Source of the DNA: Syntrophorhabdaceae bacterium
GTDB lineage: Bacteria; Desulfobacterota; Syntrophorhabdia; Syntrophorhabdales; Syntrophorhabdaceae
Direction of reading: 5' to 3'
Length of the DNA: 50,846 nucleotides
NCBI GenBank assembly: GCA_035541755.1
Contig: DATKMQ010000152.1
Coordinates: 1 to 50,846, forward strand
The notes beneath the pieces are model-generated. The model was not told the DNA's origin, searched no databases, and saw only the letters and a program-made list of their open reading frames with translations. Shown piece after piece: positions 9,352 through 50,846 of the stretch. The first letter of the stretch is position 1. Each line of letters starts with the position of its first letter. A program made the translations under genes and the position numbers.

Positions 9352-9491
9352 GACACATGATTTTAGCCGCATTCAATCCTAAAGTCTCATTTCTGGCGGT
9401 TAAGCCTGTCTCGCGGCTTATGTAAAGTATCAATAACAAGGCGCCCTCAAAAGAGGGGTGGAGCAGGACGTGAGAGGGTAGCGGGCGACCG

Positions 9492-10862
9492 TTACGTGGC
9501 CGATAGAATCTTGCCCGACCAGTATATGCCAATCAACCCCGCCAATATGTCGGTCGCGAGTCGTCCCCAGAAAACGCCCTTAAGCCCAAAGAGAACGCTC
9601 CCTGCTATGGTGAGGGGTATGAGCAGGGCCACAACCCGTATGATGTTGAGGGCAGAGGCCCGCAAAGGTTTGTGAGTACCTGTCATGGTAAACCCGGAGT
9701 AACGGTGGACCTCGGTCATCCCGTATCCCAAACTCGTAATGTAAATGTATGAACAGATGGCCCCTATGACGGCCGCATCGGTTGAAAAGATCCCCGCTAT
9801 GGGTCTCGCGAAGATGATAAGCACAAGGCCGAGGAAGATGCCGTAAAGGATTGCGAATGTCATTGTTCCTTTTCTCGCCTTTTTAATTCTGTCCATCCGG
9901 CGCGCCCCGTAATTCTGGGCGATAAACGGAACGAGCGGTATACCCACGGTCGCCGGTATCATGTAGCCGAATATCTCGATTCTGCCCGCAACCCCCATGG
10001 CCGCAACGGCCGCAGTGCCGTAGCCGGCCGCGAGCTTGGTCATTACGGTCGCCGAGACGGGGCTCATTATCATACCCAGGGCGCCGGGGATACCGAACCG
10101 GAGAATCTTTCCCCAGGACGCGAAAAGCGCGTGACCCGTTAAAGCGCTCCAGTCCACGAGCTTGAGTTTCTTCGCCAGGATGTAGCACGCAATGATCAGG
10201 GCCGTTGCCTGCGAGAGTATCGTGGCAAGCGCCGCGCCCGCTATACCCATGCGCGGCATGCCGAACATCCCGAAAATGAGTACCATGTCCAGAAACGCAT
10301 TGAGCACCGTACTGCTCACCATGAGAAGACTGACGGCCTTTGTATTGCCCGTGCTCACTATGAGGTCGGCCATGACCATCTGAAACACCGTGATGATCGT
10401 GCCTGAGTACCATATCTTCATGTACCGGGCCACGAGCTTGAGCACCTCTCCGGAGGCCCCGAGGCGCGAAAAGACGGGCCCGATCGTAAAAATGCCCACC
10501 GCCGTAATCAGCGCAGCAAAGGGCACGCCGAGGAGCAAGGTCTGTGTGGTGAGTTGTGCGGCCTTCTTGTGATCTCTTTCGCCTATCGCGTGCGCCACAA
10601 GTGGCATGGCTCCGCTGCCTAATCCGCGGATGAGGAACACGAGGAGCATGACCACCGGGAAGGTAAAGGAAATCGCGGCGAGCGCCTCGGTACCGAGCCT
10701 GGAGACAAACCACGCATTGGTAAGCTGGTACGTAGTCAGGGCAAACGTACCGGCGAGCATGGGCACAGCCATACCGATGATTGTTTTTGACACGCTCTTG
10801 TCGACAAGCTTCGACACGTTATGCATGGATTTCCCCGTAAAGATATCTGTGGCATCGCGCAT
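9492..10862 (-). CDS. MATE family efflux transporter
   Basis: The protein has 456 residues from the ATG at 10862. A later ATG at 10826 would start at MHNVSKLVDKSVS and is also possible. It has twelve predicted membrane segments in two similar halves, with the MATE features of an N-terminal TIIGMAVPMLAG segment and GAMPLVAHAIGERDHKKA after helix 2; the second half contains GVAGRIEIFGYMIPATVG. The family exports cationic drugs, toxins or lipidic compounds in exchange for sodium or protons. It is followed upstream, on the same strand, by a DegT aminotransferase gene 18 bases away, so the two are probably co-transcribed, but that does not reveal a substrate. Confidence 0.93.
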   Translation of the reverse strand: MRDATDIFTGKSMHNVSKLVDKSVSKTIIGMAVPMLAGTFALTTYQLTNAWFVSRLGTEALAAISFTFPVVMLLVFLIRGLGSGAMPLVAHAIGERDHKKAAQLTTQTLLLGVPFAALITAVGIFTIGPVFSRLGASGEVLKLVARYMKIWYSGTIITVFQMVMADLIVSTGNTKAVSLLMVSSTVLNAFLDMVLIFGMFGMPRMGIAGAALATILSQATALIIACYILAKKLKLVDWSALTGHALFASWGKILRFGIPGALGMIMSPVSATVMTKLAAGYGTAAVAAMGVAGRIEIFGYMIPATVGIPLVPFIAQNYGARRMDRIKKARKGTMTFAILYGIFLGLVLIIFARPIAGIFSTDAAVIGAICSYIYITSLGYGMTEVHRYSGFTMTGTHKPLRASALNIIRVVALLIPLTIAGSVLFGLKGVFWGRLATDILAGLIGIYWSGKILSAT

Positions 10863-15155: not shown

Positions 15156-16142
15156 ATGGCTAACGATGTTTGGGTATACATAGAACATAAAGACGGGGGC
15201 GTATCACCGATGGCCTTTGAACTTCTCGGCATCGGCAAAAAGCTTGCGGATGGTCTCGGTTCCAACGTCTGCGCCTTCGTTATCGGAGATAAAGTAGATG
15301 ATCTGGCAAAAGAGGCATTTGCCTATGGTGCATCCAAAGTCTTTGCGGTCGAGGGTGAAGTCTTTAAGGGATTCAGAGGAGAAGCATACGCGAAAGCAGC
15401 TACGTTCCTTCTCGGGAAACATAAACCGGAAGCAGCCCTGTTCAGGAACACGAGCCAGGGAGTGGATGTGGCGGCGGCAACCGCGGCGAACCTCGGTTTT
15501 GGCCTGTGCACGGACAGCATCGATCTCGCGGCGGACGGTGGCAAACTGAAGATGACCAGGGCAGGGTTCGGCGGCAACTTCACCATAACGGTGGTGAACG
15601 AGAAGGCACAGCCTCAGATCGCTACCGTGAGACCCAAAGCCTTCCCCATGCCGGAGAAGGACGCCTCAAAGAGTGGGGAAGTGGTCAAGGAATCCTTCTC
15701 GCTTGCAGAGGCTGATCTGAACACCAAGGTCACTGAATTCATCAAGGCTTTGACCACGGTCAACCTTGTCGAGGCCGACATCATAGTATCCGGTGGTCGC
15801 GGCACGGGCGGTGAGGAAGGTTTCAGGGTCCTGAAAGAGTTTGCCGATGTACTTGGCGGAGCCCTCGGCGCCTCGCGCGCGGCCGTGGACTCAGGCTGGA
15901 TACCCTATGAGCACCAGGTGGGACAGACCGGCAAGACGGTAAAGCCGAAAATTTATATAGCCTGTGGCATTTCCGGCGCCATCCAGCACCTGGCGGGCAT
16001 GAGAACCTCCGATTGTATCGTGGCCATCAACAAGGATCCCGATGCGCCGATCTTCAAGGCCGCCTCCTTTGGCATTGTGGGCGATTACAAACAACTCGTT
16101 CCCAGGCTCATTGAGGTCTTCAAAACAAAATTGAGCAGATAG
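15156..16142 (+). CDS. etfA: Electron transfer flavoprotein, alpha subunit
   Basis: The protein has 328 residues; GGAGGG stands 5-7 bases before the ATG. The C-terminal FAD domain is complete: [32 protein letters not shown], the [18 protein letters not shown] segment, and [20 protein letters not shown]. It pairs with EtfB from the gene before it to carry electrons from acyl-CoA oxidation to a membrane oxidoreductase or, in a bifurcating complex, to ferredoxin and NAD. There is no ferredoxin domain at the N-terminus. A strong intrinsic terminator follows, closing the operon. Confidence 0.97.
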
Positions 16143-37721: not shown

Positions 37722-39164
37722 TCACTCAACCAGGAAACCCTTGCTCACCGCCATGAGGTCATTGACAAGCGTTTCATAATCCAGCTTCTTGTTCTTGATT
37801 CTTTCTCTTTCTGCAATCTTCTCCTTGTGAAACCTGATGATCTCCGGAGTGAAGGGAAGATTTCCCGTGTCAAAGTATCGTACCGCCCCCTGAGCGTCCT
37901 TTATTGACATGACTTTGCAGGGGCTCGCGGAATTAGTGGCGAAGGGATTGTCAAGGATTCCCTTTTTTATCGCCGCTATCGTACCAATCATCACGTCTCC
38001 TTCTCCCATTTCAAGGACTTTATCGACGATACATCTCGCCTCCCTCTTTACCGCTTCAGTTTCGATTCGAAGGGCGGCACTGTCTACTTCTATCTTCTGA
38101 CTCTGGAGAAAATTCTCCATAGCCTTGGCCGTGCGGAAAGAATACGCGGTGTCTTCTTTTGTTGGGATTCCTTTGGCCTCAGCAACCGTCCTGATGTCGT
38201 TTGCCTGCGCTTCGCACAATTTAGCCATAAGGGTGTTCATAAATATGACCGCAAAAGAAGAGCCGGCTTCCAACGGATACTGAACAAGCGAAAAGCTCAC
38301 CGAAGCAAAGACATCTATTCCTTTGTAGCCGAACTTATCCAGATATTCGCGAGAGAGTTCCCGCAATGTTCTGGCCGTCGCCACATCCTGCGCCAAATTG
38401 CCGTGAGCGGCAAAGTGACATCGGACGTTCTTCACGCCCTGTTCAGCCATCATCAATAGCTGGACCAGAATGGCAGAGATCTGTAAGCTCGGAGTAATGC
38501 CCGCGCCGTATAGCCCCTGGCAGGACGCGCAGATGGGCACCCCGTGTTCCTCGTAATAGCCTATCAGCCTCTGGCTGTAACGGTGTGTCAGGAGGGATGT
38601 TTCAAGGGCCACTCTCGCATTATGATGCCAGAAATCCATCAACGCATCCACAGCACCTGCGGTGTGGCCGCCTGCAAAACCGATTTCATCTATGAGTCTG
38701 GGATCTGCGGCCCCATAGCGCATCGATAGGGGCGATTTCACTGCCGAAACGACTTTTCTGAACCCCGAAACCCCGTGGTTCACGAGAGGTAAACCATTGA
38801 GGACGGATTTTCCCCTCTTTACGCTCTCTTCAAGCCTTCGACCAGCTTCCGTAAAATCCAGCTGTCTCGAGAAACTGTCTACCGACGTTCCGAGAATATC
38901 CGCAAGTCCTTCCTGCTCCACATAGGTAAGGAGTTCGATTTGTTCCTCAATGGTTGCCTTGCCCATGCCTGTGATGGCGTACGTCTCACCATGCTCCCTG
39001 GCGTAGCGCATTTTATAGACCCAATTCTTCTCCGGAAGCAGACTGCTGTGAAAGGCGATCGCCTCATCAAGGTCCACATCTTTTCCCGTGGGCCACTGTG
39101 TGAGAACCTCCTCTCTTTCTTTGAAGAATTCTTCATCGGTCAGCTTTCTATTCCTGATTTCCAT
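37722..39164 (-). CDS. Glutamate mutase E-subunit homolog with altered substrate site
   Basis: The protein has 480 residues and matches the epsilon subunit of B12-dependent glutamate (methylaspartate) mutase along its length, from KLTDEEFFKEREEVLTQWPT to GKFLVE-like ends (VSKGFLVE). I recall the Clostridium cochlearium enzyme using Arg66, Arg100, Arg149, Gln147, His150, Glu171, Tyr177 and Tyr181 to hold glutamate. Here the alignment is gapless and only Arg100 and Arg149 remain; the others are Gly66, Ser147, Tyr150, Ala171, Asp177 and His181. A different substrate, perhaps without the amino group, is likely. Its ATG overlaps the S-subunit stop as TAATG. No mutL repair gene is nearby. Confidence 0.88.
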   Translation of the reverse strand: MEIRNRKLTDEEFFKEREEVLTQWPTGKDVDLDEAIAFHSSLLPEKNWVYKMRYAREHGETYAITGMGKATIEEQIELLTYVEQEGLADILGTSVDSFSRQLDFTEAGRRLEESVKRGKSVLNGLPLVNHGVSGFRKVVSAVKSPLSMRYGAADPRLIDEIGFAGGHTAGAVDALMDFWHHNARVALETSLLTHRYSQRLIGYYEEHGVPICASCQGLYGAGITPSLQISAILVQLLMMAEQGVKNVRCHFAAHGNLAQDVATARTLRELSREYLDKFGYKGIDVFASVSFSLVQYPLEAGSSFAVIFMNTLMAKLCEAQANDIRTVAEAKGIPTKEDTAYSFRTAKAMENFLQSQKIEVDSAALRIETEAVKREARCIVDKVLEMGEGDVMIGTIAAIKKGILDNPFATNSASPCKVMSIKDAQGAVRYFDTGNLPFTPEIIRFHKEKIAERERIKNKKLDYETLVNDLMAVSKGFLVE

Positions 39165-39601
39165 TACCGGCTCCTTCTGGCTGTAATATCCGCTTCAAGA
39201 TCAGCGATGGCCTTTGTAGGCATGGTGCCGGGCGGATATACTCGATCTATACCCATATCCACAAACTTCTTTTCTGCCTCTGTCCATGCCGCCTCGCCGA
39301 CGAGTAGGTAGCCGCCCAAATACAGAAGGACCTTGTTGAGTCCCGCCTCAACGCACTTCTCTCTCAGGCCGGGTATAAGCGCTTCAGCGTGGCCGCTGAG
39401 AGAAGAAATCAGGATTGCATCCGCATTTGTTTCAATAGCACCCTCAACAAACTCTGTCTGCGATACCTGAGACCCCAGGGGTACGACCTTGAATCCCGCT
39501 TTACCCAGGGCATACTCGAGTATTCTTATGCCGACGATATGGACATCGTCTCCTATCACCCCTGTCACTATTGTTCCTTTGGATTGAATGTCATTGTTCA
39601 T
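39164..39601 (-). CDS. Glutamate mutase S-subunit homolog (B12-binding)
   Basis: The protein has 145 residues and is a stand-alone cobalamin-binding domain. GVIGDDVHIVGIRIL holds the DxHxxG motif (Asp19, His21, Gly24), where His21 replaces the dimethylbenzimidazole ligand of cobalt. ISSLSGH and LYLGGYLLVG supply the SxL and GG motifs that cradle the nucleotide tail. It ends DRVYPPGTMPTKAIADLE, as in MutS/GlmS of glutamate mutase. With the E-subunit homolog encoded directly after it, it should form a radical carbon-skeleton mutase. An 81-base gap separates it from the ferredoxin gene, which is probably in the same transcript. Confidence 0.92.
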   Translation of the reverse strand: MNNDIQSKGTIVTGVIGDDVHIVGIRILEYALGKAGFKVVPLGSQVSQTEFVEGAIETNADAILISSLSGHAEALIPGLREKCVEAGLNKVLLYLGGYLLVGEAAWTEAEKKFVDMGIDRVYPPGTMPTKAIADLEADITARRSR

Positions 39602-39682: not shown

Positions 39683-39967
39683 TCATCTGTCCTCGTCCAG
39701 CACCTTGTATTCCTTTTTCAGGTCCGTAGGGGCGAGTCCGAAGTCGAGCATATGGTGAAGCGGGAGGTGTACGTCTATCGCTACCTGTGAGCACATTACC
39801 TCGCAAAAACAGCAGAAGGAACATTCAGCCGGATAGGCGACGACCGGCAATTGCTTTTCTTCATCCCAGCCGAAGATATCCATAGGACAGTGTTGATAAC
39901 ATACACCGCATCTGTTGCAGTGTTCGTAATCGATCCTTGGGCCATAATTGACATCAGTCTTGTACAT
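39683..39967 (-). CDS. Two-cluster 4Fe-4S ferredoxin, AprB-like
   Basis: The protein has 94 residues. Two cluster motifs are present: CNRCGVCYQHCPMDIFGWD near residues 17-35 and CSFCCFCEVMCSQVAI near 49-64, where the second lacks the usual Pro after its last Cys. A His-rich tail follows (HLPLHHMLDFGL). A gap of 27 bases separates it from the flavoprotein gene, and the pair resembles the AprA/AprB or flavoprotein/ferredoxin arrangement of anaerobes, in which the ferredoxin brings electrons to or from FAD. Its exact redox partner is inferred from position only. Confidence 0.93.
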   Translation of the reverse strand: MYKTDVNYGPRIDYEHCNRCGVCYQHCPMDIFGWDEEKQLPVVAYPAECSFCCFCEVMCSQVAIDVHLPLHHMLDFGLAPTDLKKEYKVLDEDR

Positions 39968-39994: not shown

Positions 39995-41791
39995 TTATTC
40001 TTTATTCAGTCTTTCGCGATCGTACTTGATTTCACCGGCTATCTTTTGTGCCGTGACCACCATGTCGTCCCACGCGGGATCCATTTCCGGATAGTCGTCG
40101 CGGTAATGGGCCGGTACCATACGGCTTTCAGTCCGCCTCAGAGCAAATTGTGCATGCAGCTCTGATATTTGTATGATGTCTTTCACCTCCAGAGCCCGCA
40201 TTAGCTCGTGCGGATTGCCCGCGTACAGCAAGGGTACTGCGCCCTGGTACGCGAATCTCAGCAATTCAATAGCGCGATCCATTTTTGCTTTAACCCTTTT
40301 GATGCCCACGTAGTTGTAGTTTACATTTCTGACATAGTCTTCAAGCTCTAATGGATTCACTCGGTATTCAGATCGCTGTGACAGCGGGGACAGGACCGCC
40401 TTTCTCGTCAACTCCACCTGCCGTAACTGTTCCGGGCCAAACGATTCCAGCTTTTCACATTTCACCAGTTCCGTGACATGATCCGCGATCAGACATGCCC
40501 AGGTGAATCCGTGTGAACCGGCCGAGCCGCCGCCAGAAACGGTTCCACCTGCAAACAGGTTCTTTACCCCGGTCTCTGCGTATTCGTTTTCACGGAAAAC
40601 ACCACCGCTCGCCTGCATACCTATACCGACCAGTACGGGCACGCATTCGGCGGGCCGTTCGTTCGTGAGACCGCCGGCGAGTTTGTGGAACTTGAGCGCC
40701 CTCGTCGGTTCTGTTGCGGCCGTAAAATAGACCGCGGCTACATCATCATCGGTGGCTACATTCTTTGCGGATAGAATAACATCATTCGCATACTCCGAGT
40801 TCCGGACGTTGGGTGAAAAGAGGAAATTTACCCCGGGGATCATGCCGCCCATTTTGGTGACATTGCTGTCGGGGTACTTATCCTCAAGATACTCCCCTTT
40901 GGAGTTGTACATCTTGAAATACCAGTTGCAGGCTCCGCCACCGCTGGAGTGGTTTATTCCTTTGGATACGTTGTAGACGATATTGATCTCCATATTCCAG
41001 AGTTTTGCACCTGCGTCTAACGCACATATATGTCCTCCTCCGTGGTTCATTGGGGCCGTCAGGGTGTAGAAGAGGTTATTAGGGTAGGGGGCCCATGGAT
41101 AGGGATAGAGCCTTGCTGCCATTCCGGTTGCCAGAAGGAGCGTCTTGGCCTTGAACACGAGAAACTTGCCGGTTCTTACGTTGATAGCCGTTGCTCCGAT
41201 GGCTTTGCCGTCGTTCGTTACGATACTCGTCACCATCGTTCTATCGAGGATCCTCACTCCCGCCTTGCGGACCGCAGTTCCCAGTCTCATCTTAAGATCG
41301 GAGCCTCTCGACAGAGTCCCGAATAGAGGTTCATACGGTTTTCCATGCTCGTCATATTCGATGCGGCCCCATACGGTTCCTTTTCTGTATCCCTGAAGCA
41401 CCTTAAGCGAACCATCGTCTTCGCGGAGCTTGACGCCGATCTCTTCGAGGAGGGGCACCGACACGTAGGTGTTCTTCGCTTGTTTCTCGGCCAGCTTGGC
41501 TTGCTTGAGACCTTTGTACCGCTCGGTCCCCATTGCTCCCTTCTTTACATCATTTGTGCTGGCTTCCTTTTTCCCCATATCCTCCTTATGAAGCGGAATC
41601 TGGTTAAAATTATCGAGTCCCACTCCATCACCGCTATATTCCATCGTGGCTTTGTCAATCACGGTAATATCCAAATCTTTGCTGTTTTTCCTGGCCCGGA
41701 TAGCAGCCAGGCTTCCTACCAGGCCGCCACCGATGATCAGGAAGTCTGTTTCGATGACGCCGTCTGATAATTGTTCGAGTGTTGCCGCCAT
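39995..41791 (-). CDS. AprA/fumarate-reductase-like FAD flavoprotein
   Basis: The protein has 598 residues. FAD binding is shown by DFLIIGGGLVGSLAAIRAR near residue 17 and by the C-terminal FAGGTVSGGGSAGSHGFTWA. Between these lies a capping region with MNHGGGHICALDAGAKLWNM, and the layout follows the fumarate reductase/AprA superfamily. It has no signal peptide, so it is cytoplasmic. Clear adenylylsulfate reductase function cannot be claimed: no aprB tail or sulfate genes are adjacent, and the next genes encode a mutase. It may reduce or oxidise the substrate or product of that mutase, which is inference. GAGG-type SD precedes the ATG. Confidence 0.88.
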   Translation of the reverse strand: MAATLEQLSDGVIETDFLIIGGGLVGSLAAIRARKNSKDLDITVIDKATMEYSGDGVGLDNFNQIPLHKEDMGKKEASTNDVKKGAMGTERYKGLKQAKLAEKQAKNTYVSVPLLEEIGVKLREDDGSLKVLQGYRKGTVWGRIEYDEHGKPYEPLFGTLSRGSDLKMRLGTAVRKAGVRILDRTMVTSIVTNDGKAIGATAINVRTGKFLVFKAKTLLLATGMAARLYPYPWAPYPNNLFYTLTAPMNHGGGHICALDAGAKLWNMEINIVYNVSKGINHSSGGGACNWYFKMYNSKGEYLEDKYPDSNVTKMGGMIPGVNFLFSPNVRNSEYANDVILSAKNVATDDDVAAVYFTAATEPTRALKFHKLAGGLTNERPAECVPVLVGIGMQASGGVFRENEYAETGVKNLFAGGTVSGGGSAGSHGFTWACLIADHVTELVKCEKLESFGPEQLRQVELTRKAVLSPLSQRSEYRVNPLELEDYVRNVNYNYVGIKRVKAKMDRAIELLRFAYQGAVPLLYAGNPHELMRALEVKDIIQISELHAQFALRRTESRMVPAHYRDDYPEMDPAWDDMVVTAQKIAGEIKYDRERLNKE

Positions 41792-41824: not shown

Positions 41825-42022
41825 TCAATCGAGTTTCAAGCTGACGCATCGAAGGTTGTACATGTTTTGCAACCTTTCGTAGGTGAGTCTGGGCGCGTCG
41901 TAAAAATCCAATTTGAAACAAAAATCCGAACAATAAACGTGCTCTTTGCCTCTGAGGATTTTGATTTCCGGATCACCCTTGATAGGCCTGCCGCAATACT
42001 CGCAATTCTCTTTCTTTGCCAT
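41825..42022 (-). CDS. Small TRASH-like zinc-finger protein
   Basis: The protein has 65 residues from the ATG at 42022, which has CTGGAGG seven bases upstream; a longer frame is rejected. MAKKENCEYCGRPIKG and KEHVYCSDFCFKLDF give Cys7, Cys10, Cys31 and Cys35, a TRASH/MYM-like zinc or metal site. It is the first gene of the operon that leads to the flavoprotein, ferredoxin and mutase genes, and lies downstream of a sigma-54-type promoter. Proteins of this type can act as metal sensors or small chaperones; neither is shown here. Confidence 0.8.
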   Translation of the reverse strand: MAKKENCEYCGRPIKGDPEIKILRGKEHVYCSDFCFKLDFYDAPRLTYERLQNMYNLRCVSLKLD

Positions 42023-42095
42023 AGTTTGCCTCCAGGTTTTTTTGTTAATCCTTTTCTTTCTCATTCTTTCTCAGGCTGCTTTTTTATTAAAAGAA

Positions 42096-42110
42096 GCAAA
42101 AACGATACCA
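42096..42110 (-). promoter_or_regulatory. Sigma-54-type -24/-12 promoter of the mutase operon
   Basis: On the minus strand TGGTATCGTTTTTGC (42110-42096) has GG and GC at exactly the -24/-12 spacing of the TGGCACRNNNNTTGC consensus. It lies about 75 bases before the first ATG and just downstream of a sigma-54 activator gene. An inverted repeat, CTCAAG and CTTGAG (42111-42129), adjoins it. Confidence 0.65.
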
Positions 42111-42340: not shown

Positions 42341-45300
42341 CTAGGCGGAACGTTTGTTGTATATTGCCGGCTTAACGATGTCGAGTTTTTTCATGCGGTA
42401 TATCAATGTTGAAGCGTTTATGTCGAGCAATTCAGCTGCTCCACCGGGTCCGTAGACCTTCCATCTGGTTTCCCTAAGGGCACCAAGGATATGCTCCCGT
42501 TCCTTTTCTTTGAGGGTTTTGGCGTTGCCGTTCTTCCCGTCTAATGTGGGTGCGTTCTCAAAGGGGGGTAGCCGAAAATCGGATCCTGTGCTCGATATGA
42601 TACCTCTCTGGACGACATTTTCCAGTTCGCGCACGTTACCCGGCCAGTCATGGCGAATCAGGGTCCCCATTACTTCCTGCTTCACATTGAGCACATTCGT
42701 GCCCAGGCTCGCGTTATGGACTTTGAGGAAATGACGGACAAGCAATGGAATATCTTCTCTTCTCTCCCGTAAAGGCGGTATGGTGAGAGGGAATACGTTT
42801 ATTCTGTAATAAAGGTCTTCGCGGAACCTTCCTGCCTTGATCTCCTGAAGAAGGTCCCGGTTGCTTGCTGCGATGAGTCTGAAGTCGGACACAAGTACAT
42901 CCTTTCCTCCTCCCACTCTTTCGAACTCTTTGCTTTGAAGGACGCGGAGGAGCCGTGCCTGTACTTCGAGCGATAGATCGCCGATCTCATCCATGAACAG
43001 GGTTCCCTTATCAGCCATTTCGATCCGCCCCACATACCGGTTGGTCGCTCCGGTGAAAGCCCCTCTCTCGTGGCCGAAAAGTTCACTCGTAATAAGGCTC
43101 TCTGTCAGCGCGCTGCATTGGACAGTAACAAAAGGCCCATTGGCCCGGGAACTCTGACGATGAACGGCTTCGGCAAGCAAATTCTTGCCCACACCTGTTT
43201 CACCCAGTATCAGCACCGCCGCGTCACTCTTTGCAACGTGGTTCGCCTGCACAAGAATATGCCGGATTGCAGGGCTTGTTCCTACAATACTCTCGTGGTA
43301 GCCTGGTAGTACCGATTCCTTTTGTCCCGCAAAGTTCTCCTGTCTCTCTTTCCTCAGGATCTTGTCCAGATCCTGATGGGCCCTTTCCCCGTAAAGATAG
43401 AGGGTCGCTAAGGCGGCGAAAAAGGTGAGAAGATTTAGATCCTGGTTTCTGAAGACGTTCCCGAGAAGCCGGTTCTCATGATAAAGAACTCCGATAACCC
43501 TTTTTTCCAATAAGAGAGGCACACAGATACTCGACCGCACAAGAGGGTTTGACTGTTTGGAAAGGGGGTCTCCATCAGCATCGTCTGTTTCAAAAATAGA
43601 ACCTGTGCCTGAGGTTATCACCCTCTCAATCATCTTTCTTGAGGATGCAAAAGCTGGATCGTATATCTGTTCCATGGTAAGGTTTTTTGAGGCTCGAAGG
43701 CGCAAAATGGGGCCGTTTTTCTGTTCCTCCCTCTGTTCCTCGAGAAGCAACAGGGCACCGCGCTCTGCCCCTGTTATGCGGTTTACCGTTGCAACGATGT
43801 TTTGGAGCAGCTTACCTCCGCCGTGTCTCGCACCGACCTCTTGGGTCAGGCTCACGATCTCCGTAAGAATAGTCCTTTCGTAATTTTGACCCTGTACCAG
43901 CGCCCGTAGATCATCGGGAATACAATCGGCGTTGGTGGAGGAAAATATCTCTGAAGCGAGCTGTACGGCGGCCCTGGCCTTCTTGTCGTTTGCCATGGAC
44001 AAATAATAACGGGTCAACTCAAAGTATGTTTTGGCCAGTTCAATCTGGTTGCCCGATTCGCGGAGGCACTTGGCCGATTGATTAAAGAGATTGACAATCT
44101 CCTGGCTCGTTAATCCCTTGGATTTCTGGAGAAGCGCCTTATACCGGTACGCGATGCCACGCATAAATATATTCTTTACGCTTAGCATCCGTTCTATTTC
44201 CTGATCAAGCGATACGCCGGGCACTCTCGGCAGCTCCCCGCATTCCATAGCCCAGCCGAGCTCCATAAGATATGGGTAGAGCAAAAGGTTTGATTTCCGG
44301 ACCGAACTGTTCCTCAAGAACTTTCGAAGATGCTGCAGGCATTCCCTGTGGTTACCCATATGCCGATAAGCAACCGCCAATTCAAGAGTCACGAGGTTTT
44401 CAATCCAGGTGTTATCGCTCTCCTGCGCTTCTTTTAAGGCAAGCTTCATGTATCGGAGGGCGTCTTCAGCCCGGTTTATGAGCAGCATCACCATGGAAAT
44501 GGAAGAGTCGGCGTGCGCTGCAAGATAACGGTTATCTTTCTGAAAGCAATGGTCACGAATCGTGTCGAGCAATCCGAGCCCCTGCGTAGTCTGGCCCACC
44601 ATGGCATAGCAGTGGCCTACCATCATGCCGGCGACAATGGGGAAATGACCTATCGGGTACTTTTCGACGTCGGGCACGGATTTCTCATAAACTTTGATGA
44701 CCTCCCGGAATTGGCCCTGCCAGAAAAGAAAATAGATGCGAAACATGGTGATAGGGGCTGCCAGTTCCGGGTCGTCTGCATGTTTGATCCGGGATATGGC
44801 TTGTTCGAAACGCTGGGCTGCTTCGTTCAGGTGGGACGTCAGCCTTTCATATTTTGCAACGTGCATCTCCAAAAGTATTTCATACGCCGGTTTGTCCAAC
44901 GATTTTACCCGCTCCCTGGCTTCCTTCAGGAAGGCGACGCATTGTTCCATATTGGTTCTGCCGCCATACACATTGGAATACCCTATTGCGGCCTTGATAA
45001 AGAGCCAATCTTCGTTTGCCCCCCCTTTGTCGGCAAGCTGTGCGAGCACATGAGTGAAACAGGACATAGCTTCATTCGAACGAAGGGATTGAGCGTAGAT
45101 CTCTCCCGCTCTGATAATCCACTGGCATTCGGTCGCATCGTTCGGAATACAGGCAAGGTGTTCGGCAATCTCGAGTGCTTTTGCGTCGTCGTCGTGAAGA
45201 TCCCGGATGAAGATCGCTGCCATCTGACGGTGATACCGTTCTTTTTCTTCGGTAGAGAGACGGCTGTATTGTTCCAGACGCCTTTCGCTGTTTCTGAAAG

Positions 45301-45499
45301 CGTACACGGCAGGCCTGATTCTGACGAGCAGTCCGCCCTGGACCTCTCGCTCGAGCATATCGAGTATCTTTGACGCCTTCATCCCTGTGAGTTCTTCGAT
45401 CCAGTCCAAGGAGAACTCACCCTTAAACATTGAAGCTATGGATAGCAAAAAGTCTTCTTCGGGAGATTGCTGGCTCAAGGAAATCTGTTCGTTCTGCAT
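42341..45499 (-). CDS. Sigma-54-dependent activator with TPR-like and GAF domains
   Basis: The ATG at 45499 is chosen because the -10 box at 45532-45537 lies close to the longer TTG frame, giving 1052 residues. The N-terminal half is helical repeats (about 1-540). A GAF domain follows (about 545-700), then the AAA+ domain with Walker A GETGVGKN near residue 770, the sigma-54 contact motif GAFTGA near 813, and Walker B LFMDEIGDL. A Fis-type helix-turn-helix ends the protein (GGAAELLDINASTLIYRMKK). It should bind upstream sites and open sigma-54 promoters. No receiver domain is present, so the GAF or repeat region probably senses a ligand. Confidence 0.92.
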   Translation of the reverse strand: MQNEQISLSQQSPEEDFLLSIASMFKGEFSLDWIEELTGMKASKILDMLEREVQGGLLVRIRPAVYAFRNSERRLEQYSRLSTEEKERYHRQMAAIFIRDLHDDDAKALEIAEHLACIPNDATECQWIIRAGEIYAQSLRSNEAMSCFTHVLAQLADKGGANEDWLFIKAAIGYSNVYGGRTNMEQCVAFLKEARERVKSLDKPAYEILLEMHVAKYERLTSHLNEAAQRFEQAISRIKHADDPELAAPITMFRIYFLFWQGQFREVIKVYEKSVPDVEKYPIGHFPIVAGMMVGHCYAMVGQTTQGLGLLDTIRDHCFQKDNRYLAAHADSSISMVMLLINRAEDALRYMKLALKEAQESDNTWIENLVTLELAVAYRHMGNHRECLQHLRKFLRNSSVRKSNLLLYPYLMELGWAMECGELPRVPGVSLDQEIERMLSVKNIFMRGIAYRYKALLQKSKGLTSQEIVNLFNQSAKCLRESGNQIELAKTYFELTRYYLSMANDKKARAAVQLASEIFSSTNADCIPDDLRALVQGQNYERTILTEIVSLTQEVGARHGGGKLLQNIVATVNRITGAERGALLLLEEQREEQKNGPILRLRASKNLTMEQIYDPAFASSRKMIERVITSGTGSIFETDDADGDPLSKQSNPLVRSSICVPLLLEKRVIGVLYHENRLLGNVFRNQDLNLLTFFAALATLYLYGERAHQDLDKILRKERQENFAGQKESVLPGYHESIVGTSPAIRHILVQANHVAKSDAAVLILGETGVGKNLLAEAVHRQSSRANGPFVTVQCSALTESLITSELFGHERGAFTGATNRYVGRIEMADKGTLFMDEIGDLSLEVQARLLRVLQSKEFERVGGGKDVLVSDFRLIAASNRDLLQEIKAGRFREDLYYRINVFPLTIPPLRERREDIPLLVRHFLKVHNASLGTNVLNVKQEVMGTLIRHDWPGNVRELENVVQRGIISSTGSDFRLPPFENAPTLDGKNGNAKTLKEKEREHILGALRETRWKVYGPGGAAELLDINASTLIYRMKKLDIVKPAIYNKRSA

Positions 45500-45531
45500 G
45501 CGGGTACTCGTAAGAGTCCTGTAACCACACT

Positions 45532-45560
45532 TTGTTATCAAAATAGCAGCGCCATGTCAA
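45532..45560 (-). promoter_or_regulatory. Sigma-70-type promoter of the activator gene
   Basis: On the minus strand TTGACA (45560-45555) and TAACAA (45537-45532) are 17 bases apart. Transcription would begin about 26 bases before the chosen ATG. Confidence 0.6.
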
Positions 45561-45868: not shown

Positions 45869-46909
45869 CTATTTTGCAGCGTTGTATTGCGCTATGAGAC
45901 GCTGCGCTTCGTTATAGATCTTAGTGCCCGGAAGACCTTTGAGGTCAAGGTCCTGGGCTTCTTTCAGGGCCATGGGCTTGATCGGCGCATAGAATTTAGC
46001 CATGTCTTCCTTTGAGAGCGTTATGAATTCAACTCCGAGCTTTCTTGCTACATCCATGGACTGTGGACTGTTCATCCACGTAAAATACGCATCAGTCTCC
46101 CGGCTATAGTACTCTATATTGTTCTCGAAAACTTTCCTGATGTCGGGAGGCAGGCTGTTGAACTTCTTGAGATTCATCATCCTCATGCCTCCGTGCGTAC
46201 GGTACCAGTTGATCATGGTGACATATTTTGCCACATCGGCGAGTTTCAAGGACTCAAGTCCTTCAGTCGGACCTATCAGTCCGTCAAAGATGCCCTTCTG
46301 CAAACCCACATAGATTTCGGCATTCGATATAGAAATACCCTCTACGCCCAGCTCCTTGAGCGCGTTCGAAATGTCCCCCACGACTTTGATCCTCATGCCC
46401 TTCAGGTCGTCTATCTTTCGGACAGGTTTTCTGGTAATAAGCTGATTTAGTGATCCACCCCAACAGAGCACTTTCATGTCTTTATACTCTTGCTCAATCT
46501 CGGGAAATTTGGCGAGCATCTCTTTCCATATCTTGGCGCCCACGTCCAAGTTTGTCACACCATAGAAAAAGAGATAGCTTGCTCTAAGAATCTGAAAGCC
46601 GCTCTTGGACGTAGATGGGTTGATAAAGGCCATGTCAATGGCTCCCTGGGTGAGCTCTTCAACCGCATCCCTGCCGCCGATAACCGCTCCGCCCCAATAG
46701 GGTTTGAATTTCACTCGTCCATTGGTCTCTTTTTCAACCTTTGCCATCCATTTTCTGTCCACCACACTGAAAGGATGGTCCACACCGTACGGTGTGCCGT
46801 AGGTTAGTTCGATGACCTTTTGCTGCTGGGCCGCCGCAAAGCAGGGTAAAATAACGCTTATGAGGCAGACAGCCATAAGAAGCCCAATCGTGTTCCTAAC
46901 TTTTCTCAT
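45869..46909 (-). CDS. TRAP transporter substrate-binding protein (DctP type), copy 1
   Basis: The ATG at 46909 follows AAGGAG by six bases, giving 346 residues. A Sec signal peptide (MRKVRNTIGLLMAVCLISVI to AAAQ) is followed by QQKVIELTYGTPYGVDHPFS and VKFKPYWGGAVIGG, then the DctP fold with RVKVVGD-like and ITRKPVRKIDDLKG segments. It captures an organic acid in the periplasm for a TRAP permease. The DctQ and DctM permease genes are absent from the window. It is the last gene of the tandem [UroD-like plus binding protein] module and is about as similar to copy 2 as paralogs of moderate age. Confidence 0.92.
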   Translation of the reverse strand: MRKVRNTIGLLMAVCLISVILPCFAAAQQQKVIELTYGTPYGVDHPFSVVDRKWMAKVEKETNGRVKFKPYWGGAVIGGRDAVEELTQGAIDMAFINPSTSKSGFQILRASYLFFYGVTNLDVGAKIWKEMLAKFPEIEQEYKDMKVLCWGGSLNQLITRKPVRKIDDLKGMRIKVVGDISNALKELGVEGISISNAEIYVGLQKGIFDGLIGPTEGLESLKLADVAKYVTMINWYRTHGGMRMMNLKKFNSLPPDIRKVFENNIEYYSRETDAYFTWMNSPQSMDVARKLGVEFITLSKEDMAKFYAPIKPMALKEAQDLDLKGLPGTKIYNEAQRLIAQYNAAK

Positions 46910-46987
46910 TTTACTCTCCTTTTGCTTTTTTTCGCGACGACGGTTGACGTCGTAATCTTTCGGAGTTCTCACAAAATTGGATGTTTT

Positions 46988-48238
46988 CTATCTGTAAGTA
47001 CTGTATTCTTTTGTAAATTCGAACATCATCTTCACGTTCTCCGGTTTAGCGTCATCGAGGCCCGTCGAAGCATCCATGATGAAACCGCCTCCCCTTCCGC
47101 AATGATCGATAAGCTTCTTGCAGTGGGCTTTCACATCTTCAGGCGTTCCTGTAGCAAGGACAGAGATGGGCAGTCCGCCTTTTATGCAAATACCATCTCC
47201 CAGGATATCTTTGGCCTTCGTCATATCCGTTGCCTCAAATGAGTAGCAGGCCTTTGCTGGCGGAATATCTTTTATGAACTCAAGCCGGGAGGTACAATCA
47301 CCCTCCCAGAACGGGCAGGGATTGAGCCCCTCGTTGATGATGCCGATCATGAGTTCGCGGAACGTGGGCCAGTAAAAACGCTTGAATTGTTCGAGAGACA
47401 TGAATCCGTCAAGCCCTTTGTGAAGAGGGATGAGAATCTTCGTGTTTCCAGATCTCTTCGCGCCAGCGAGGGCCATTTCCAGCATGTAAGGCAATAACTT
47501 TTCGCAGGCTTTCTCGACCAACTGAGGCCTCCTGTACATATCGAGCATAAGGCCCTTGGTTCCACGGAAGAAATCGCCCAGCGTGTCGAAGGGGGCTTGC
47601 GTGCCTCCTCCTGCCAGGGATGGGAATCCTTCCTCTTTCAACTTTTCATTGAATCTTTGAGCATAAGAACGGCTCTTAATGATTTCCTCGCCCGCCTTCA
47701 TGAGGGTTTTAAGCGCGCTCTGAACTTCCGGCATACCGAATGCCCCAAAACCCACGAGGCCCAGATAATAGCTAATTATCGTGTGGATTGGCGGCAATTG
47801 TTCGAAGGCCTTGAGTTCTCCGCAGAGCCTGGGCCAGTACTTGCGCACCATGAAATCACTCGTGTCAGAAAGGAAATGATCGTACTCATCCGCCTTCATG
47901 TACTCACCTTCCACAAATTGGAAAGAAACATCGGCAGGCAACTGGCGTCCCGGCCACTTCAGCTGTTGAAAATCGAGGATATCGAGTAAAGGGCCGATAC
48001 CTCTGGAGCCGAATGGGTTTTGAGCCATATCGGGCGCAAAATCGATGGTCGTCTTCAATTGTGCTTCCCAAACTTTGTCAAGATCGTACATCATATCTGC
48101 ATGGGTAAACCCGCAGTAGCGTGCGGGGAAGAATGCAAAGGAAACAGCTATGGGCACCCTGTCAGGCGTTCTGAGCGCGATAGCATCTGCGTATCGTTTT
48201 TCCCGTTCGGCATAAAGCTCTTGAGGCGTCTTGTGCAT
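46988..48238 (-). CDS. UroD-like corrinoid methyltransferase family protein, copy 1
   Basis: The protein has 416 residues, longer than ordinary UroD or MtaA/CmuA proteins of about 340. Segments YAEREKRYADAIALRTPDRV at the start and EGDCTSRLEFIKDIPPAKAC, FMSLEQFKRFYWPTFRELM and STGLDDAKPENVK later place it in the UroD/methyltransferase superfamily. At the usual HxC zinc site it reads EGDC, and the late SCG position reads STG, so the zinc ligands differ from MtaA. A corrinoid gene opens the same array. It likely transfers a methyl group or acts on a corrinoid-bound compound, but the substrate is unknown. Confidence 0.85.
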   Translation of the reverse strand: MHKTPQELYAEREKRYADAIALRTPDRVPIAVSFAFFPARYCGFTHADMMYDLDKVWEAQLKTTIDFAPDMAQNPFGSRGIGPLLDILDFQQLKWPGRQLPADVSFQFVEGEYMKADEYDHFLSDTSDFMVRKYWPRLCGELKAFEQLPPIHTIISYYLGLVGFGAFGMPEVQSALKTLMKAGEEIIKSRSYAQRFNEKLKEEGFPSLAGGGTQAPFDTLGDFFRGTKGLMLDMYRRPQLVEKACEKLLPYMLEMALAGAKRSGNTKILIPLHKGLDGFMSLEQFKRFYWPTFRELMIGIINEGLNPCPFWEGDCTSRLEFIKDIPPAKACYSFEATDMTKAKDILGDGICIKGGLPISVLATGTPEDVKAHCKKLIDHCGRGGGFIMDASTGLDDAKPENVKMMFEFTKEYSTYR

Positions 48239-48347
48239 ATGGTCTTTTCTCCCGCTTATTGTTTTCTTCGCACCCGCTGTTTACAAGGCACAAAGTGTAG
48301 CTGATTCTTCAATCAGTGGTCTCAGGCAATAGTAACTTTCTGGCTCG

Positions 48348-49373
48348 TTACCTTCCTCCCCTGAGTCTCTGCACCTCGGTGAGAATCTTTGTACCCGGAA
48401 GCCCCTTGGCATCGAGATTCTTTGCTTCTTTGGCGGCTTTGTCCAGGATCAAGCTGTAGAATTTTGCCATGTCTTCCTTTGGGAGCGTAATGTACTCTAC
48501 GCCGTTCTTCTTGCCGAATTCCTTTCCCTCCATGTCACTCTTTATCTGGTCGTTGTCCGACTCTGTAGAGAACCATTCGACGTTGCTCTGAAAGACCTTC
48601 TGGATGTCAGGGGGTAATTTGCTCCATGCAACAAGGCTCATGACGCGCGAGCCCGTACTGGGCCTTACCAGATTGAGCATAGTGTAATACTTGGCGACTT
48701 CAGCTAATCGCAGAATGTCGAGTGTATTGTAGGTGACGAATGCCCCGTCAAGGATGCCCTTCTGCATGCTCACGTAGACTTCCGTCATGGGCGAGTTTAC
48801 TCCTTCTACACCCAGATCCTTGAGTACTGAGGTGATTTCACCGAGAGTCTTGACCCGCATGCCTTTCATGTCGGCAAGCTTGCGCACGGGTTTGCGGGCC
48901 AACAGATCATACTGGGTGCCCGAACTCCATCCCATGACCTTGAGCCCCTTATATTCGGCTTCAATCTCGGGGAACCTCTTCAGCATCTCGAAGAAGATGC
49001 GCCTTTCATCCGCAGGGTTTACACCTGTAAAGAAAAGGAACAGTGCCTTGGAGACGTCGTACCCTGTTTTTGCCTGACCCGGAGAGATGAACCCCACGTC
49101 AGCAACGTTTTTAACCATCTCATCCATGGCATTTGCCGAAGCCCCAATGATGGCCCCACCCCAGAATGGTTTGAACTTCACCCGTCCGTTGGTCTCCTTC
49201 TCTATCTTAGCCATCCATCTCTGATCTGTTTTGCTGAAGATATGGTCCGGACCGTAGGGCGTGCCATAGGTAAGCTCGATGACTTTCTGCTGGGCTATAG
49301 CGCCGGAAGGCATAACTGTTGTCATCAAAACAATTATTGATAAAGCAATTATGAATACGCTGATCTTTTTCAT
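48348..49373 (-). CDS. TRAP transporter substrate-binding protein (DctP type), copy 2
   Basis: The ATG at 49373 follows GGGAGGAG, giving 341 residues with a signal peptide (MKKISVFIIALSIIVLM to GAIAQQ). The mature start KVIELTYGTPYGPDHIF and FKPFWGGAIIGASANAM are nearly the same as in copy 1, while other parts diverge (QAKTGYDVSKALFLFFTG). It sits between the two UroD-like genes, so each UroD-like gene is followed by a binding protein gene. As with copy 1, no TRAP permease subunit is in the window. Confidence 0.92.
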   Translation of the reverse strand: MKKISVFIIALSIIVLMTTVMPSGAIAQQKVIELTYGTPYGPDHIFSKTDQRWMAKIEKETNGRVKFKPFWGGAIIGASANAMDEMVKNVADVGFISPGQAKTGYDVSKALFLFFTGVNPADERRIFFEMLKRFPEIEAEYKGLKVMGWSSGTQYDLLARKPVRKLADMKGMRVKTLGEITSVLKDLGVEGVNSPMTEVYVSMQKGILDGAFVTYNTLDILRLAEVAKYYTMLNLVRPSTGSRVMSLVAWSKLPPDIQKVFQSNVEWFSTESDNDQIKSDMEGKEFGKKNGVEYITLPKEDMAKFYSLILDKAAKEAKNLDAKGLPGTKILTEVQRLRGGR

Positions 49374-49470
49374 TACTCTTCTCCTCCCTATGTGATTAAT
49401 CTCAGTGAAGTCTTGACTGTCCGGAAGAGGCATTGGTTAAAGCCGCTTCGCACTTGCCTGAGTTCGCTCC

Positions 49471-50718
49471 TCAATACGCACCATATTCCTTCGTAAAATC
49501 AAACATAGCTCTTACGTTCTCGACTTTCGCGTCGTCAAGACCTGTTGAAGAGTCCATGATGTATCCTCCGTTCCGGCCCACAATATCGATAAGCTTCTTG
49601 CAGTGGTTCTTTACGTCCTCAGGTGTGCCTGTGGCGAGAATGGAGAGGGGTACGTTACCCCGAATACAAATGCTATCACCCAGCACCTCTTTTGCTTTAA
49701 AGATGTCCGTCGCCTCGAAGGCGTAGCACGTCTTTCCCTCGGGGATGTCTTTGATGATCTTTAGACGGGAAGTGCAGTCTCCCTCCCAGAGAGGACAAGG
49801 CGTTAAACCCTCATTGATGAGTCGTACCATCAACTCCTTGAGGGTCGGCCAGAAGAACTTCTTGAACTGCTCTTCCGACATGAATCCGTCAAGCCCTTTA
49901 TGGATGGGGATGAAGATCCTTGGATTCCCGGAGGCCTTTGCAGCGTTGACAGCCATCTCGATCATGAAGATCAGGATCTTTTCGCAGGCTGCGATCACTT
50001 TGTCAGGTCTTCTGTACATATCGAGCATGAGTCCTTTTGTACCTCTAAAAAAGTCACCCAGGGTATCAAACGGTGCCTGGCTCAACCCACCGAACTGCAT
50101 GGGGAATCCCGCGTCCTTTGCCTTCTGGTTGTACGCCCTACCGTAGGTTGCGACCTGCAGTGATTTCTCCGCTGCTTTCTTCAATCCATCGAGGGCTTCG
50201 ACTACTTCCGGAGAAACGAAGGCCGAAAGGCCCGTCGAAAGACCCATATAGTAAGAGATAATGTTATGGAGAGGGGGCAGTTTTTCAAATCCTTTTAGAC
50301 TGCCGCATATGCGGGGCCAGTATCGTCTGAACATGAAATCGGTGGGGTCGACAAGAAAGTGGTCGTACTCATCGGCTGACATATACTCGCCTTCAACAAA
50401 TTGATACGACAGGTTACTCTCCACCCCGTGGCCTGGCCATTTCAATTGCCTGAAATCGAGGGCATCGAGGAGCGGTCCGAGAAAACGTGTGCCGTACGGG
50501 TTCATGTCCATATCCGGCGCGAAATCCATAAGGGTCTTAAGCTGTGAACTGAGCATCTTATCGGGGTCATACATGACCTCTTCGATGGTCATGCCGGTAT
50601 ACTTGCACGGAAAGAAACCGAAGAGAACCATAATGGGAACCCGATCAGGCTTCTTTAAGGCGATGGCGTCATTCGTCCGCTTCTCTCGTTCCGCGTAATG
50701 CGCATCTGGTACCTTCAC
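49471..50718 (-). CDS. UroD-like corrinoid methyltransferase family protein, copy 2
   Basis: The GTG at 50718 is chosen: AGGAGG lies seven bases upstream, and the corrinoid gene stop is two bases earlier. The product has 415 residues. It matches copy 1 throughout, including EGDCTSRLKIIKDIPEGKTC and STGLDDAKVENVRAMFDF, with the same replaced zinc-site residues. It is tightly coupled to the corrinoid gene, which is the best evidence that it is a corrinoid-dependent methyltransferase rather than a heme enzyme. It differs from copy 1 mainly in the middle third. Confidence 0.88.
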   Translation of the reverse strand: MKVPDAHYAEREKRTNDAIALKKPDRVPIMVLFGFFPCKYTGMTIEEVMYDPDKMLSSQLKTLMDFAPDMDMNPYGTRFLGPLLDALDFRQLKWPGHGVESNLSYQFVEGEYMSADEYDHFLVDPTDFMFRRYWPRICGSLKGFEKLPPLHNIISYYMGLSTGLSAFVSPEVVEALDGLKKAAEKSLQVATYGRAYNQKAKDAGFPMQFGGLSQAPFDTLGDFFRGTKGLMLDMYRRPDKVIAACEKILIFMIEMAVNAAKASGNPRIFIPIHKGLDGFMSEEQFKKFFWPTLKELMVRLINEGLTPCPLWEGDCTSRLKIIKDIPEGKTCYAFEATDIFKAKEVLGDSICIRGNVPLSILATGTPEDVKNHCKKLIDIVGRNGGYIMDSSTGLDDAKVENVRAMFDFTKEYGAY

Positions 50719-50720
50719 GG

Positions 50721-50846
50721 TCAGCCTCCTATCCATCCGTTACAGAGCGTTACCGCGGCCATGGCATCCTTACCATAGGCATCGGCCTTCACATACTTTC
50801 GGATCTCTTCATCGATCTGACCGCCGCCGATCATGATCTTGATCTT
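50721..50846 (-). CDS. Corrinoid (B12-binding) protein, C-terminal end only
   Basis: The last 41 codons of a gene that starts beyond the window end at a TGA at 50723-50721. KIMIGGGQIDEEIRKYVKAD followed by AYGKDAMAAVTLCNGWIGG matches the C-terminal part of methyltransferase corrinoid proteins, with the GG and D..DA segments that line the B12 tail. Its upstream part is not seen. Its coupling to the UroD-like gene suggests it carries the methyl group for that enzyme. Confidence 0.85.
   Translation of the reverse strand, partial: KIKIMIGGGQIDEEIRKYVKADAYGKDAMAAVTLCNGWIGG

Follow-up and report, generated by a model that had tools for sequence, protein, structure and literature searches.

A glutamate mutase homologue with a rebuilt substrate pocket, probably acting on a substrate other than glutamate

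To our knowledge, few coenzyme B12 carbon-skeleton rearrangements are known, and glutamate mutase is treated as a one-reaction family. Glu171 of its E subunit, GlmE, holds the amino group of the substrate. In GlmE, Arg66, Arg149 and Glu171 hold the migrating glycyl part of the substrate, and Arg100 and Tyr177 hold the acrylate part (PMC9545868). We analysed a homologous gene pair in a 50,846-nucleotide stretch (here, the window) of a Syntrophorhabdaceae bacterium (GCA_035541755.1, contig DATKMQ010000152.1, positions 1-50,846, forward strand), which is contig C152 of a genome of 3.85 Mb in 180 contigs, hereafter G000. With GlmES of Clostridium cochlearium (EC 5.4.99.1; PDB 1ccw/1i9c/6h9e), the window pair has in common the E and S subunits, the TIM barrel, the cobalamin motif and Arg100, Arg149, Asn123 and Glu330; unlike GlmES, it has six of the eight substrate contacts replaced, a pocket that appears enlarged, no adjacent mutL and, genome-wide, no methylaspartate ammonia-lyase. 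Methylmalonyl-CoA mutase, 2-hydroxyisobutyryl-CoA mutase, lysine 5,6-aminomutase and ornithine 4,5-aminomutase likewise combine a TIM barrel with a Rossmann B12 domain (Z ~17-29), but they are 11-18% identical, have CoA-thioester or PLP-dependent substrates and follow another subunit layout. We found no literature on GlmE homologues with altered pockets; recent work on anaerobic benzene degradation returned by a text search mentions no mutase and is unrelated.

The gene pair and its operon

The features of the locus are as follows.

37722..39164, minus strand: E subunit, the TIM-barrel substrate subunit (480 aa, intact open reading frame)
39164..39601, minus strand: S subunit, cobalamin-binding (145 aa, intact open reading frame)
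39683..39967, minus strand: small ferredoxin that partners the flavoprotein and carries two CxxCxxCxxxC clusters (94 aa; Fer4; apparently same operon)
39995..41791, minus strand: flavoprotein of the AprA/fumarate-reductase superfamily (598 aa; FAD_binding_2; PDB 8a8o/1jnr; apparently same operon)
41825..42022, minus strand: CxxC protein, zinc-finger-like, apparently the operon's first gene (65 aa open reading frame)
42095..42110, minus strand: candidate sigma-54 (-24/-12) promoter, TGGTATCGTTTTTGCT (pattern match)
42341..45541, minus strand: sigma-54-dependent activator with TPR, GAF, AAA+ and Fis-type HTH domains (Pfam), the upstream gene

Transcription on the minus strand runs from the sigma-54 activator through the CxxC protein, flavoprotein and ferredoxin to S and E. 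The last five genes are separated by 33, 27, 81 and -1 bases, S and E sharing one base in TAATG (S stop, E start), so the genes from CxxC to E look like a single operon. The candidate promoter TGGTATCGTTTTTGCT lies ~72 bases 5' of the first ATG of this operon; two matches to the -24/-12 pattern occur in the window against 0.71 expected, which is statistically weak alone, and the position is right. The activator probably regulates the operon. Downstream of E lies a tRNA-Met on the opposite strand, and upstream of the regulator (45869-50736) two gene pairs follow one another in tandem, each encoding a TRAP solute-binding protein together with a uroporphyrinogen-decarboxylase-like protein (MtaA/CmuA-related). 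A binding protein 50% identical to that of the window is found near a second flavoprotein copy on contig C180 of the same genome.

The window E protein is 40% identical to C. cochlearium GlmE end to end and matches it over its full length (phmmer against PDB 6h9e/1cb7, E 1.5e-110). A first-pass annotation of the window, made from its letters, had described the alignment as gapless over residues 1-181; the first gap indeed falls only at ~residue 217, so residue numbers 1-181 map one to one on GlmE. The AlphaFold model of E (mean pLDDT 83.6, pTM 0.86) supports the GlmE fold, superposing on GlmE 6h9e_B with Z 59.1 and an rmsd of 1.9 Å over 441 residues, against Z 29 for the next-best fold, lysine 5,6-aminomutase. 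The S protein matches 1i9c_A (phmmer, E 3.1e-41), scores 174.9 bits on NF002612 (cut-off 110) and in alignment retains the complete cobalamin motif (D-x-H-x-x-G, S-x-L, G-G), as had been annotated. Membership of the window pair in the GlmE/GlmS superfamily, with the build of an AdoCbl carbon-skeleton mutase and with Arg100 and Glu330 present, is thus well supported by sequence and model.

The flavoprotein resembles the APS/PAPS reductase alpha subunit and the fumarate reductase flavoprotein in its FAD-binding fold and its small two-cluster ferredoxin partner, but identity to both is weak. In SdhA/FrdA the NRLGG segment carries the dicarboxylate-binding arginine; this segment is not conserved in a local alignment with the window protein, and for this reason a role as methylsuccinate or succinate dehydrogenase was set aside. 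The flavoprotein is very rare: at E <= 1e-100 it was found in one of 395 sampled genomes of the phylum, namely G000 itself, and in a second 395-genome sample around genome G424 (largely the same group) again in the centre genome alone. The ferredoxin recurs beside it at four other loci, and in both G424 and G425 a CxxC homologue (64% identical) likewise stands first in a Zn-flavoprotein-ferredoxin block. From the position of the mutase genes after this module, the first-pass annotation had suggested a redox pathway, and it had proposed seeking the same pocket residues with a flavoprotein neighbour in other genomes. The redox link held only in part. Of the three further genomes with a window-type E, two have a close homologue of the flavoprotein (67% identical in G424, 65% in G425); these two belong to one class, so their co-occurrences are not independent, and none was found in the third, the spirochaete G426. 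The residue set itself is present in all three orthologues, apart from position 171 in one, but the flavoprotein adjoins E at none of the four loci inspected (L037-L040). At L037 and L039 a zinc dehydrogenase and BaiCD/enoate-reductase-like flavoenzymes are the neighbours instead.

Constraint on the pocket and its variation across the family

Alignment to 6h9e/1cb7 shows that Arg100 and Arg149 alone survive among the substrate contacts named in the annotation, and that the six replacements are exactly those it gave: R66G, Q147S, H150Y, E171A, Y177D and Y181H. Further changes in the pocket are P180H, F216Q, M294L, K326R and T94S; Asn123 and Glu330 are retained, and the residues on the adenosyl side are intact. 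In the AlphaFold model the changed residues lie mostly at or near the C-terminal ends of the barrel strands, and since Arg66, Arg149 and Glu171 hold the glycyl part in GlmE, the changes would fall mainly on the migrating part of the substrate.

Three window-type E orthologues were recovered, two proteobacterial and one from a spirochaete, giving four genomes in all within the searches made; extending the search to 85 genomes of the G424 class and 46 of the G426 class yielded no additional window-type protein. The orthologues (loci L037, L038 and L039; 68-71% identity) all retain G66, S147, R149, Y150, D177, H180, H181 and Q216, position 171 being Ala in two and Pro in one, so that the replacement set itself is under constraint. 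Ten GlmE-clade proteins, which are probably true glutamate mutases (61-90% identity, the farthest 61% identical to C. cochlearium GlmE), retain all eight contacts, with Gln147 replaced by Glu in two. Among 150 columns invariant within both clades, 63 are fixed differences (a background of 42-44%), and the contacts differ at four of six positions under a strict definition or six of eight under a relaxed one (P 0.20 and 0.08). Contact-only statistics, not significant at 40% identity, were dropped as proof of a rebuilt site, and the rebuilt-pocket claim therefore rests on clade-wise conservation. A set of 15 pocket residues is enriched over the background of fixed differences (P 0.019). Summed side-chain volume at these 15 positions is 325 cubic angstroms lower in window E than in GlmE, compared with a change of 4 +/- 124 when columns conserved in GlmE are drawn at random (P 0.005); such sums take side chains alone and ignore backbone shifts and waters. 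The pocket thus appears to be significantly opened, by ~300 cubic angstroms.

Across 37 homologues, R100 is the sole contact invariant in every sequence, E330 and R149 are retained in most, and positions 66, 147, 150, 171, 177, 180, 181 and 216 vary clade by clade. Besides the window type, the following pockets were seen, which makes at least seven types on one GlmE scaffold in the sequences compared.

True GlmE: R66, Q/E147, R149, H150, E171, Y177, Y181
E2: G66, Q/G147, R149, Y150, S171, N177, N180, M181
E1: D/E66, R149, G150, S171, Y181
G000 contigs C130 and C167: R66, D147, R149, S171, S177, Y181
Fused E-S: R66, D147, P171, W177
L021-L027, from the window's phylum: R66, L149, S150, L171
L013/L014: Q66, N149, N171, E177, H181

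Outside the GlmE clade, Glu171 is retained in these 37 sequences solely by the protein of G000 contig C143. The natural reading of the alignment is that the family retains the propionate end of its substrates and varies the migrating group. G000 encodes six E proteins, which together with relatives fall into several clades, every one with a distinct pocket; none of the six has a full glutamate site and five lack Glu171. Their genes lie on C3, C130, C143, C152 and C167 (loci L007-L010). Other genomes of the same order mostly lack E genes, three of 45 having one or two. In the tree, window E and its three orthologues group with support 1.000, followed by the E2 protein of G425 (0.897) and then by those of G000 and G424.

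Several other arrangements were observed. The L021-L027 clade (45-51% identity to GlmE) has Leu for both Arg149 and Glu171 and retains Arg66, Tyr177 and Tyr181, another rebuilt pocket. In the spirochaete G426 (C67, L082:9866-15519), E and S are fused in a protein of 639 aa encoded beside MutL and adjoining a glycyl radical enzyme and its activase; an E-type protein of similar length, its pocket the same, is encoded in genome G077 (L028). A fumarate-adding role of the glycyl radical enzyme, as in an alkylsuccinate pathway, was rejected, the protein resembling sulfopropanediol or hydroxyproline dehydratase below the cut-offs. At L040:7749-11440 the order is E1-S-E2, with S located by tblastn at 9390-9818, a single cobalamin subunit as if shared by two E proteins. 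Two copies of an E-gene fragment, codons 1-36 only, lie on the G424 chromosome in opposite orientation ~13.8 kb apart (L083:1478-1585 and 15287-15394), one copy directly after an S gene, a possible inversion, truncation or assembly fault.

Gene context of the sister mutases

The E2 mutases of G000, G424 and G425 are nearest to window E in the tree (49-58% identity) and share G66, R149, Y150, L294 and R326 with it, but have N177, N180 and M181 where window E has D177, H180 and H181. In G000 and G424 they are encoded with E1, MutL, MmgE/PrpD and EtfAB, and in G425 in the order E1-S-E2. On C3 of G000 the order is acyl-CoA dehydrogenase, EtfB, EtfA, S, E1, MutL, E2, MmgE/PrpD and a second acyl-CoA dehydrogenase, followed by transport genes; in G424 the CxxC-flavoprotein-ferredoxin block adjoins acyl-CoA dehydrogenase, EtfB, EtfA, S (67%), E1, MutL, E2 and an MmgE/PrpD-like protein. 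C143 and C167 likewise have MmgE/PrpD with S and E, accompanied by a class III CoA-transferase on the former and class III CoA-transferases on the latter.

Substituted 1,4-dicarboxylates are the substrates of known MmgE/PrpD enzymes, which include a methylsuccinate isomerase whose gene lies with those of a CoA-transferase and an acyl-CoA dehydrogenase (PMC12290011). By analogy, methylsuccinate corresponds to the branched product of GlmES-type chemistry, amino group aside, and one would expect MmgE/PrpD, CoA-transferase and acyl-CoA dehydrogenase to act after a mutase of the glutarate to 2-methylsuccinate type. Some or all of these three genes lie beside the sister mutases at C3, C143 and C167 of G000 and in G424, in part or whole as in the methylsuccinate/itaconate degradation cluster, for which no B12 mutase is named (PMC12290011); none of the three is present in the window operon. 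The HxTGT motif of the MmgE/PrpD proteins at C3 (L008:13624-15003) and in G424 (L081:1601-2989) reads DCTGT, with Asp where their structural homologue has His, which suggests that they use a substrate other than that of known members; they therefore need not be methylsuccinate isomerases, nor need methylsuccinate be an intermediate in these two clusters.

The reaction of the window pair and its rivals

The window pair is not a glutamate mutase in the strict sense, because the arginine claw (R66/R100/R149) is broken by Gly66, the Glu171, Tyr177 and Tyr181 contacts are Ala, Asp and His, and the gene set mutS-mutL-mutE-methylaspartate ammonia-lyase is missing; the full-length GlmE-like barrel and the S cobalamin motif are in place. 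As annotated, no mutL adjoins the pair; the operon has none, and two full-length copies are encoded elsewhere in the genome. No methylaspartate ammonia-lyase was found in G000, the assembly of which is 96% complete, such that a gene scored absent could sit in a gap; the single PF07476 match is a muconate-cycloisomerase-type protein, compared with 743 bits for the lyase in the control cluster L041. Both GlmE-clade clusters inspected (L041 and L043) have the order S-mutL-E, L041 with the lyase.

The best explanation is the one already favoured in the first-pass annotation, that the substrate lacks the amino group or is new: with the residue set conserved across two phyla, the pocket larger and the lyase absent, a non-glutamate substrate with mutase chemistry retained is probable. 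That it belongs to a bulkier, amino-free, glutarate-type class is a more evenly balanced call, and we put just short of even confidence in the specific proposal of a new AdoCbl radical reaction, the interconversion of a bulky, amino-free 2-substituted glutarate and a 3-substituted 2-methylsuccinate, as one among several parallel and functionally distinct radiations of the glutamate mutase fold in anaerobic bacteria. For the window pair we infer activity, reaction class, direction and pathway as follows. S would carry AdoCbl base-off/His-on, and substrate binding would trigger Co-C homolysis; the 5'-deoxyadenosyl radical would abstract hydrogen from the carbon beside the Arg100-held carboxylate, the Arg149-held fragment would shift by one carbon, and the hydrogen would then be returned. 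The migrating fragment is predicted to carry no ammonium and to be bulkier than glycyl, because Arg66 and Glu171 are gone and the pocket is larger; the likeliest reaction would thus be that of a linear 2-substituted glutarate with a branched 3-substituted 2-methylsuccinate. Under control of the sigma-54 activator and together with the flavoprotein-ferredoxin oxidoreductase, the pair may serve to break down an imported acid anaerobically; DASS-type anion transporters adjoin the spirochaete orthologue (L039). Against the glutarate reading, the MmgE/PrpD and CoA-transferase genes are neighbours of the sister mutases, the nearest of which is 50% identical, and not part of the window operon, and window E differs from sister E2 at positions 147, 171, 177, 180, 181 and 216, so that their substrates may differ too.

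GlmES turns over 2-hydroxyglutarate slowly, and the chief rivals to a bulkier substrate are this acid and glutarate. Conversion of such a small amino-free analogue (2-hydroxyglutarate to 3-methylmalate, or glutarate to methylsuccinate), with Asp177, His180 and His181 binding a hydroxyl or water, would agree with the removal of the amine partner by E171A and with the retention of R100 and R149; at two loci (L037 and L039), moreover, the orthologue genes directly follow the zinc dehydrogenase upstream of S (68% identical between them). We consider this unlikely, however: a smaller substrate has no need of ~325 cubic angstroms of extra room, R66 is lost though both carboxylates would remain, and close homologues of the zinc dehydrogenase are absent from G000 and G425. 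The dehydrogenase neighbours at the two loci and the Asp-His-His that replaces Tyr177, Pro180 and Tyr181, fixed in the orthologues, might suit a methylmalonyl-CoA-mutase-like 1,2-acyl shift on a free 4-oxo or 2-oxo acid, the three residues polarising the carbonyl of a migrating acyl or ketone group, but the idea is speculative, the window operon holds no demonstrated ketone-producing enzyme, and we regard it as a long shot.

We find it just as improbable that the pair is still a glutamate mutase binding glutamate in another way. The E protein passes the cut-off of the NCBIfam equivalog model TIGR01503 (399.4 bits against 390.1) and R100 and R149 remain, but the ten GlmE-clade proteins keep their contacts down to 61% identity, and the model does not discriminate, accepting the orthologues and several paralogues with mutually differing pockets (L007, L008, L010, L037, L039, L040 and the window were tested); the name methylaspartate mutase is therefore no evidence of glutamate mutase activity, and the absence of the lyase from the genome and of mutL from the operon also speaks against it. 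Least probable is a non-catalytic pair, a relic or cobalamin carrier: six contacts are lost and the mutL reactivase is missing from the operon, but the frames are intact, the S-E overlap is tight, and orthologues 58-71% identical in two phyla retain R100, N123, E330 and D-x-H-x-x-G.

For annotation, a non-glutamate mutase here means that pipelines would misname window E, the current curated model giving most pocket types the name methylaspartate mutase. The natural series of pockets would directly test the coupling between Co-C homolysis and substrate recognition, and, if the proposed reading is true, expression of a few gene pairs could uncover a set of new radical mutases and the anaerobic dicarboxylate pathways to which they belong.
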